From NCBI RefSeq assembly GCF_003752415.1, contig NZ_RKHG01000001.1:1426001-1490000 (forward strand): a stretch of DNA of 64,000 nucleotides, written 5' to 3'. The stretch comes from Luteococcus japonicus (GTDB lineage: Bacteria > Actinomycetota > Actinomycetes > Propionibacteriales > Propionibacteriaceae). Shown in pieces: positions 10,719 to 63,634 of this stretch. The position numbers and the translations under genes are program-made. The stretch's first letter is position 1. The number at the start of each line of letters is the position of its first letter. The notes under the pieces were generated by a model. The model was not told the DNA's origin and ran no database searches. It was given only the letters and a program-made list of their open reading frames with translations.

Positions 10719-10828
10719 TTCATCCTCGCTTGGTCGTCTTCACCCGCGCCGGGAGGCACAGGTCATCACAGGATATCTGTCCGGAGCAAGACAGACCACC
10801 GCATTGCTCGGCCGCGTGCGGGTTCTCA

Positions 10829-10890
10829 CCGCTCGGGTTCCCGCAAGCCGCTCGGGTTGCAACACGAGCGGAAATCCGAAACCCACTCGA
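10829..10890. repeat. 19-bp unit/palindrome repeat element, copy C (one unit)
   Basis: One 19-base unit, CCGCTCGGGTTCCCGCAAG (10829-10847), is followed by the palindrome CCGCTCGGGTTGCAACACGAGCGG split over 10848-10871 and an inverted half-unit GAAACCCACTCG. It shares the CCGCTCGGGTT core and the GGGTTGCAAC centre with copies at 44.9, 46.1 and 57.7 kb. It lies in the divergent gap between the cold-shock gene and a membrane-protein gene. Confidence 0.8.
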
Positions 10891-10918
10891 CATCGCGCGG
10901 CCGCCTAGACTGGAGGGC

Positions 10919-44867: not shown

Positions 44868-44919
44868 GTCACCAAGGCTACCCGCGGATCCCCCGTACCA
44901 ACGGCGCTCAGGTTCCCGC

Positions 44920-45040
44920 GATCCGCTCGGGTTTGTGGGATCCGCTCGGGTTCGTGGGATCCGCTCGGGTTCGTGGGATCCGCTCGGGTTCGTGGGATCC
45001 GCTCGGGTTGCAACCCACGCGGATCATGGGAACCCACGCG
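44920..45040. repeat. 19-bp unit/palindrome repeat element, copy A (four units)
   Basis: Four 19-base units (44920-44995), GATCCGCTCGGGTTYGTGG, are followed by the 30-bp palindrome 44996-45025 (GATCCGC ... GGGTTGCAACCC ... GCGGATC) and an inverted half-unit GGGAACCCACGCG at 45028-45040. The first unit has T at position 15 and the other three have C. The palindrome side faces the AbiEi-like gene. Confidence 0.9.
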
Positions 45041-45043
45041 TCT

Positions 45044-45952
45044 TCACCGGGGGCGCCCAGAACGCAGTGCCTGCTCCAGCTCCTTGCTCCACACAGCAGG
45101 CACCCGGAGCCCAGGATCGGTCCAGCGATGCACCCACCATCCCTGGGTGCGCATCCGTTGCTCCCGGAACCGCTCGTCGCGCAGCACGTCGGAGAGCTGC
45201 TGCCCGGGTTTCAACAGACGGCCGTACTTGACCCACCCGTCGAACTCGCCCAGGACGCCCAGGTCCGGCCACGCAAAGTCCGCGCGCCCGATCCGGTTCC
45301 CCTGGGAATCGACAACCCAGAACTGCAGCACTGGGACGGGCAGGTTGAACTCGTGCATGAACCAACGGCTCCGTGACTCCCCGGCGCTTTCTGCCAGTGG
45401 ATCCCCCAGCGCCACGATTGCCCTGGCCCGGGGCGCCCCCGTCATCCGCCCCTGCATCTCGACGATCTCCGCCAGCAGCACCGGATCCGCCCCTTGCCGC
45501 AGCGCCGCGTCAACCACGACCAGCCCTCGGTCCGGAGTAAGGATCCTCGCGAGGTCTGCCGCCGTGCGCTCGAGGGTGGTCACAGGCAACCCGTCCACCT
45601 CGGTCACCTCGACGTCGTCGAGGCGGGCGCGGTGCACCTGGACGCTGGCACGGCGCACCCCGCCGGCATCCCCCACCCGCGTGACGTGTACCCGCCCCAG
45701 ATCGTGCGACGGCAGCGGAAGCCCGTGCAGGGCCGCGGCCGAGTGGTGACTGAGGACTCCCGAATGGAGGCGCGGCCAGGTCGCCTGGACCAGGATGCGA
45801 TGCCTGTCCTCGAACTGTGGCACTGGACGCGTCGACGTGTCCAGGTAGTCACCGCGCCGGACGCGTGCAAGGCTCCCCTCGCCGACGAGTCGTCGGATGT
45901 CGCTGTCGGTCACGCCCCGCTGGGCCAACTGTGCTCTGGTGAAAGTGTTCAT
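45044..45952 (-). CDS. AbiEi-like antitoxin-domain protein with nuclease-like C-terminus
   Basis: 302 residues. The N-terminal 90 residues (AQLAQRGVTDSDIRRLVGEG, LARVRRGDYLDT) form a winged-HTH of the AbiEi antitoxin type, with ALHGLPLP typical of the family. The C-terminal third (RADFAWPDLGVLGEFDGWVKYGR) has an E-x-D-x-K-like acidic/Lys arrangement, as in DUF559/Vsr-like restriction-fold domains. Such stand-alone proteins are common in actinobacteria, and no AbiEii toxin gene is beside it. Its role is unknown. It is bracketed by two inverted copies of the repeat element. Confidence 0.7.
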   Translation of the reverse strand: MNTFTRAQLAQRGVTDSDIRRLVGEGSLARVRRGDYLDTSTRPVPQFEDRHRILVQATWPRLHSGVLSHHSAAALHGLPLPSHDLGRVHVTRVGDAGGVRRASVQVHRARLDDVEVTEVDGLPVTTLERTAADLARILTPDRGLVVVDAALRQGADPVLLAEIVEMQGRMTGAPRARAIVALGDPLAESAGESRSRWFMHEFNLPVPVLQFWVVDSQGNRIGRADFAWPDLGVLGEFDGWVKYGRLLKPGQQLSDVLRDERFREQRMRTQGWWVHRWTDPGLRVPAVWSKELEQALRSGRPR

Positions 45953-46072
45953 ACCTACGTTATGTGCGGCGCGCCCCGAAAATTTTCACCTGTCCACAGG
46001 GACACTTGACCCAGTAGCTGTCCACAGGGTCCCGTCGGGAAGGCGTGGCGGCCAAGACGCCTGGGTTCCCGT

Positions 46073-46125
46073 GATCCGAGTGGGTTGCAACCCGAGCGGA
46101 TCACGCGAACCCGAGCGGATCCAAC
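46073..46125. repeat. 19-bp unit/palindrome repeat element, copy D (inverted orientation)
   Basis: A 34-bp near-palindrome GTGATCCG...CGGATCAC (46073-46106), centred on GGGTTGCAACCC, is followed by one inverted unit, GCGAACCCGAGCGGATCC (46107-46124). It is the mirror orientation of copy A, so the two face each other across the AbiEi-like gene. It borders the 3' end of the potassium-channel remnant. Confidence 0.85.
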
Positions 46126-46145: not shown

Positions 46146-46697
46146 AGCTAGGCCCCAGGGCGTCGATGTCCTGGGTCGAGCCGGAGACGATCAGCGCCTC
46201 CCCCATGCGCAGCACACGGTGCTCGGGCGGGTTGGCCTCGTAGTTGCCGTCGTCGTGGCGGATGGCCATGGTTGCCATCCCGCGACGACGCAGGTCGGCC
46301 ACGGACTTGCCATCCAGCTGCGCATCGACTCCGATCTCCTCCAGGCTGAAGGACAGGTCACCGCGCCGGGACGCGTGGCCAGCTGCACCGCTCGTCGGCC
46401 CGCCATCACATAGGGCGAGATGGCGCGGTCCGCGCCGGCCGGCTCCAGCTTGTGCATCACGGCCTTCGTGCTGGCCCTGGACACGATGAAGAGCTCCGGG
46501 TTCAAGGCTCGGGCGCTGATGGTGGCGTGGACATTGTCGGCATCGTCGTCGATGGCCGTCACGAAACCTGCGGCCCGGGTGATCCCGGCCGTCAGCAGCG
46601 TGTCGTCATTGGTGCCATTGCCCGGCACCACCAGGTAGCCGTCGGCTGCCCACCAGGCGCCGGTGGTGGCGCAGGCCGCCCGGGCGTCAGTCGTGTT
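46146..46697 (-). pseudogene. TrkA-domain potassium channel remnant
   Basis: The remnant begins within a TrkA-N (RCK) domain: GYLVVPGNGTNDDTLLTAGI and VTAIDDDADNVHATISARAL, then GADRAISPYVMAGRRAVQLA. A frameshift with a loss of about a dozen codons near 46360 leads to DLSFSLEEIGVDAQLDGKSV, a TrkA-C start, in another frame. That frame ends STQDIDALG at about 46150 without a stop and runs into repeat copy D. The membrane pore and the nucleotide-binding glycine loop are absent. It is the wreck of a voltage-independent K+ channel, likely trimmed at both ends. Confidence 0.75.
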
Positions 46698-57713: not shown

Positions 57714-57832
57714 CCGCTCGGGTTTGTGCGATCCGCTCGGGTTTGTGCGATCCGCTCGGGTTTGTGCGATCCGCTCGGGTTTGTGCGATCCGCTCGGGTT
57801 GCAACACACGCGGACCGCAGGAACCCGAGCGG
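57714..57832. repeat. 19-bp unit/palindrome repeat element, copy B (four units)
   Basis: Four exact 19-base units, CCGCTCGGGTTTGTGCGAT, span 57714-57789. They are followed by CCGCTCGGGTTGCAACACACG, with its palindromic centre, and end in the inverted half-unit GAACCCGAGCGG (57821-57832). The unit equals that of copy A except at two positions. It lies between the SDR start and the ccsB stop. Confidence 0.92.
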
Positions 57833-57853
57833 CTGCCGGGGCACCCCGTGAAA

Positions 57854-63148: not shown

Positions 63149-63167
63149 CCCCTCGACAAGCTCGGGG
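63149..63167. repeat. CTCGACAAGCTCGGG dispersed repeat, copy 1
   Basis: CCCCTCGACAAGCTCGGGG is a near-palindromic 19-mer. The same core recurs at 63213-63227, 63555-63573, 63595-63610 and 63615-63634, and in degenerate form at 6221-6234. Confidence 0.7.
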
Positions 63168-63554: not shown

Positions 63555-63634
63555 GCCCTCGACAAGCTCGGGCAGCGAGAAGGGTGCGGCCTCTGGACAG
63601 GCTCGGGTCACCCAGCCCTCGACAGGCTCGGGGC
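63555..63634. repeat. CTCGACARGCTCGGG repeats, copies 3-5
   Basis: GCCCTCGACAAGCTCGGGC at 63555-63573, GGACAGGCTCGGGTCA at 63595-63610 and GCCCTCGACAGGCTCGGGGC at 63615-63634 lie in the 144-base gap between the GIY-YIG start and the hemB stop. Confidence 0.7.

Follow-up and report, generated by a model that had tools for sequence, protein, structure and literature searches.

The chromosome of Luteococcus japonicus carries a family of intergenic compound dyads, all of which lie in the half of the chromosome around the replication origin, and elements with the same geometry, written in other letters, recur in other genera of the Propionibacteriaceae. The parts of this picture are of known kinds, namely dispersed dyad sites and modular tandem repeats. 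New is the combination of a fixed 19-15-19 geometry, a sequence specific to each genome and confinement to the origin half; a search of the open-access literature returned no description of such an element. The pattern of conservation makes it probable that the elements are sites bound by a putative protein. That such binding would in addition serve a role on the scale of the chromosome, working much as nucleoid occlusion does through Noc and SlmA, is a tentative proposal that we stop just short of calling probable.

Anatomy of the element

The window, the whole stretch of 64,000 nucleotides that was analysed, spans bases 1,426,001-1,490,000 of a single 3.453-Mb contig. An earlier note on this DNA had described four sites sharing a 19-bp unit, and all four are present: the window contains 16 instances of CCGCTCGGGTT with at most one mismatch where 2.4 are expected, and 0 of 100 shuffles reached 16. 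Their assignment to one family holds in that they are copies of one element, with the correction that the site seen at 46073-46125 belongs to the opposite strand:

10826..10893, plus strand: element with two plus two units, centre 10859/10860, in a divergent intergenic region
44904..45044, plus strand: element with five exact direct units preceded by one degenerate unit, and two reversed units, centre 45010/45011, core 44977-45044
46054..46121, minus strand: element with two plus two units, centre 46087/46088
57714..57835, plus strand: element with five direct units (four and the inner one) and two reversed units, centre 57801/57802, 68-bp core 57768-57835

Aligned on their centres, the four sites follow a single plan, in which at least two direct 19-bp units CCGCTCGGGTTnnnnnGAT are followed by GTTG/CAAC and then by at least two reversed units. 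Because at least two units stand on each side of the centre in 32 of 33 aligned L. japonicus copies, the core is taken as 2+2 units; it is 68 bp long and the 33 copies align over it without gaps. The reversed half-unit that had been thought to close the array is thus replaced by at least two full reversed units. Half-sites with the core GCTCG..TT are spaced by 19 bp around a dyad centre that reads TTGCAA or CTGCAG. Extra tandem units occur in about half of the 33 copies and reach six on one side, beyond the one to four units counted before. Consecutive units abut, with just a short variable stretch within each, in agreement with the earlier view that this is not a CRISPR. The 57.7-kb element is the top match of the whole genome to our profile R1 (77.8 bits).

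Several neighbours of the window elements could be labelled by reading their sequences. The element at 10826..10893 lies upstream of two divergent genes, a cold-shock-like one on the minus strand and another on the plus strand. Between the two oppositely oriented elements near 45 and 46 kb lies a gene for an AbiEi/DUF559-like protein (45044-45952), and a frame-broken, apparent remnant of a TrkA-like potassium-transport gene (46147-46690, minus strand) adjoins an element. The luxS-leuS interval of the sister genome has a different content, with neither the AbiEi/DUF559-like gene nor the elements.

Copy number and chromosomal position

Across the genome there are 56 exact instances of CCGCTCGGGTT, whereas a reversed control has 2. 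The sequence-only profile R1 identified 37 distinct elements of variable unit number, consisting of the 33 copies in the model and four more. The pattern is therefore not absent elsewhere, and the many copies predicted from the window do exist, although its density is not kept across the genome.

All of these approximately 37 elements fall within 1.263-2.718 Mb of the 3.453-Mb chromosome. The genes dnaA (by Pfam), yidC, gidB, parA and parB (by reading the proteins) are found at 2.109-2.120 Mb, and dnaA together with parAB places the origin at 2.11 Mb. GC skew, sampled in twenty 20-kb stretches, changes sign at about 2.0-2.6 Mb and near 0.35-0.5 Mb. With the origin located by these genes and by the skew, every element belongs to the origin half. 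Neighbouring elements within 5 kb were merged before position statistics; the origin half then holds 31 of 31 sites (binomial p 5e-10), and the largest element-free arc covers 58% of the circle, whereas none of 20,000 random placements left an arc larger than 45%.

Other accounts of this distribution were considered. A role of the sites as marks of the terminus was dropped, since dnaA and parAB put the origin at 2.11 Mb. A shortage of intergenic space was rejected as well: in the samples, the non-coding share is 11% in the terminus half and 14% in the origin half, so that room is not what limits the former. No alternative dyad sequence appeared in 240 kb sampled from the terminus half. As a KOPS- or Ter-like directional signal the element also fails, its orientation being independent of the replichore (p 0.46).

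An unrelated intergenic repeat, CTCGACAAGCTCGG, is present in 46 copies in L. japonicus, with window occurrences at 63152-63165 and 63558-63571. Its strand follows the replichore, being plus in 22 of 31 copies left of the origin and minus in 12 of 15 to the right (p 0.0016). This repeat, too, is biased towards the origin half (28 of 36 merged sites), and since the bias is shared it may have a general cause.

Relatives in the family

In other genera R1 gave weak matches, the better of which have the same architecture in other letters. Twenty-six relatives, extending to three further genera, align without gaps with five L. japonicus copies and keep the 19-15-19 spacing. The features standing out in this cross-genus alignment are GCT in the left outer half-site, a C in the inner half-sites and a TGCA-like centre. 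A second profile, R2, matched 27 of 198 family genomes (L. japonicus included) in 8 of 29 genera, counting some genomes with a single weak match that is possibly due to chance; most of the 198 gave no match at the thresholds used.

Copy number differs widely even within one genus, from 1 (G137) to about 56 (G136). The latter is a complete genome that, by reading, starts with dnaA, and its origin half holds 37 of 50 merged sites (p 5e-4). The sole genome of the same genus as L. japonicus (G001, 79% complete) has no element by profile search. There the gap orthologous to the 57.7-kb site measures about 59 bp, as against 174 bp here, and is thus shorter by about 115 bp. The empty sites anticipated in a sister are supported to that extent, but the junction is not clean. 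In a further genome (G160), single intergenic regions contain whole dyads in tandem at intervals of 80-112 bp (L155 5867-7502; L156; L157; L104), some of them at contig ends.

Among 84,980 species genomes scanned for two exact tandem units none was positive, and a degenerate core pattern matched four unrelated genomes, none with a full dyad. Plasmids, phages and viral contigs yielded no element, the five viral 16-mer matches being devoid of dyad structure.

Constraint on the half-sites

The distribution of substitutions among copies informs us on what has been conserved. Between the 33 L. japonicus copies, identity amounts to 92% in half-site columns and 48% in the ten spacer columns. The two arms pair at 73.0%, compared with 72.5% for shuffled partners, showing no excess of covariation, and columns 27/42, 28/41 and 30/39 beside the centre are mostly non-pairing. 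Both observations argue that the duplex is conserved and not a hairpin. Left and right spacers give no sign of shared descent (Mantel r 0.003, p 0.47), and near-identical copies are absent, the closest pair being 93% identical.

In G136, 52 copies have an outer half-site GCTCG that is invariant except for one base. Two types of outer half-site, GCTCG-GGT-T and GCTCG-ATC-T, are about equally frequent in these copies (L211-L250 and others), and the GGT and ATC types combine independently across the two arms (p 0.58). The match between arms in this genome is slightly above that of shuffled arms (78.6% versus 75.8%, p 0.007), an excess that perhaps stems from a subfamily. One small subfamily (L213, L225, L234, L250, L113) was seen to have (A)AGTCGCTCGGGTT-like ends and GTCGCTC inner units; the majority form is GATCTGCTCG.

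The contrast between half-sites and spacers, the unlinked spacers and the independent half-site types together have the look of binding half-sites under selection, and on these sequence patterns binding is predicted. A copying process that accepts only functional templates could also preserve half-sites. Even so, binding sites kept by selection fit the data better than do a hairpin RNA, a terminator and a repeat of recent mobility.

A putative compound operator and its alternatives

In the explanation we favour, the element would be a compound operator, with four or more half-sites at 19-bp spacing arranged as a dyad around the centre. As double-stranded DNA it would be bound by multimers, for example a dimer of dimers, of one putative sequence-specific protein in each genome. 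Given sites throughout the origin half and none in the terminus half, the bound protein would mark origin-proximal DNA. It may thereby restrain division over unsegregated DNA as Noc and SlmA do, or it may organise the origin half in another way. Copies so patchily distributed among genomes would be unexpected in a central cell-cycle system, unless the specificity of the protein drifts past detection. Carried further, the elements might belong to a chromosome-marking system of the whole family, in which a protein on 19-15-19 dyads would mark the origin half and either time division or organise segregation, its specificity changing by genus while the geometry stays fixed; at this breadth we consider the proposal rather unlikely.

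The earlier note had offered two readings, of which the binding array of a protein is now the better supported; a miniature mobile or palindromic repeat is its main rival, with evidence on both sides. The rival supposes that a miniature, non-autonomous repeat, mobile or REP-like, spread through several family lineages, that it is now mostly inactive and that its 19-bp units later grew in tandem by slippage. It would explain the patchy presence, the very uneven copy number and the genome-specific consensus, and it agrees with the copy-free genome of the same genus and its shorter orthologous gap, with the growth of tandem units and with the whole-dyad tandems of G160. However, Y1 transposase (PF01797, the sole transposase family searched) was found in 0 of 10 genomes, with control genomes positive. 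As nine of the ten have copies, no Y1/RAYT enzyme tracks the repeats, as the earlier note had suggested a transposase might. Flanking direct repeats of at least 7 bp occur at 1 of 33 copies (null 2.7%), the element ends being uncertain by a few bases. Also unfavourable are the best copy pair at just 93% identity, the unlinked spacers within a copy, the strong contrast between half-sites and spacers, and the 58% of the chromosome wholly without copies. Patchiness between genomes and the origin bias of CTCGACAAGCTCGG leave this explanation a substantial minority of the weight, and we regard it as a serious possibility, short of a probable one.

Either reading must account for the empty terminus half. 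Elements bound by a protein would open a direct way into the means by which these actinobacteria couple division or segregation to position along the chromosome. As a mobile repeat, the elements would form a class of fixed geometry and fast-changing sequence, with a total avoidance of more than half a chromosome still to be explained.

Gene context bears on a third explanation, operators of a large regulon. Genes called by a simple ORF finder place the 33 copies in 19 tandem, 8 divergent and 6 convergent gaps; a few of the predicted gene ends, themselves uncertain, run into an element. Since copies occur in all three gap types, the sites follow neither promoters nor gene ends. A transcription factor acting upstream of many genes would suit a dyad of conserved half-sites and the many copies that have a start codon at a distance of about 70-130 bp, but it is improbable in view of the six convergent copies and of a distance and orientation to starts that are not fixed, and it would not lead one to expect confinement to the origin half.

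A transcribed hairpin, either a bidirectional terminator or an mRNA-stabilising stem, is very improbable: the 57.7-kb element folds at -72.9 kcal/mol, against -49.1 kcal/mol for shuffles (z -6.1), but good folding comes with any near-palindrome by construction, the L. japonicus arms lack covariation and conserve mismatches at the centre, none of the 33 copies has a run of four T within 20 bases on its right side and just two have AAAA on the left, and eight copies lie between divergent genes. The absence of T-runs and of any terminator call at the sites confirms the earlier exclusion of a terminator, and no Rfam match above the gathering score in the window points to an annotated RNA family.

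Comparison with known systems

Among mobile repeats, MITEs differ in that no target site duplication is evident at the 33 copies, whose ends are uncertain by a few bases. REP/REPIN sequences resemble the element as short units in inverted pairs, intergenic and in many copies. Those associated with RAYT carry a GTAG or CGTC tag adjoining the hairpin unit (PMC3733652). In L. japonicus, by contrast, the alignment of the copies (A1) contains no invariant GTAG/CGTC tag, the unit itself is not a hairpin, compensatory stem changes are missing and no Y1 transposase accompanies the repeats. BOX of Streptococcus pneumoniae, in the excerpted description (PMC3049150), is a composite intergenic repeat whose middle modules stand in tandem and vary in number. 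Variable tandem modules within an intergenic composite element are found here as well; BOX, as excerpted, is made of the distinct modules boxA, boxB and boxC and not of a dyad of one unit, and that excerpt describes no restriction to the origin half.

Dyad sites confined to one chromosomal domain are also known from the matS/MatP system of enterobacteria, where they mark the terminus; here it is the terminus half that is empty. The closest likeness in working would be to nucleoid-occlusion sites. SlmA binds as a dimer of dimers. Noc has about 70 sites per genome and SlmA 24-52, both under-represented near the terminus (PMC4726725). As with Noc of Bacillus subtilis and SlmA of E. coli, tens of dispersed palindromic sites, depleted at the terminus, are found here (about 37-56 per genome). 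Their sites are short single palindromes, whereas the present element is a 68-bp compound dyad with tandem units and a genome-specific sequence. Its protein and effect being putative, we liken it to nucleoid-occlusion sites and do not class it among them.
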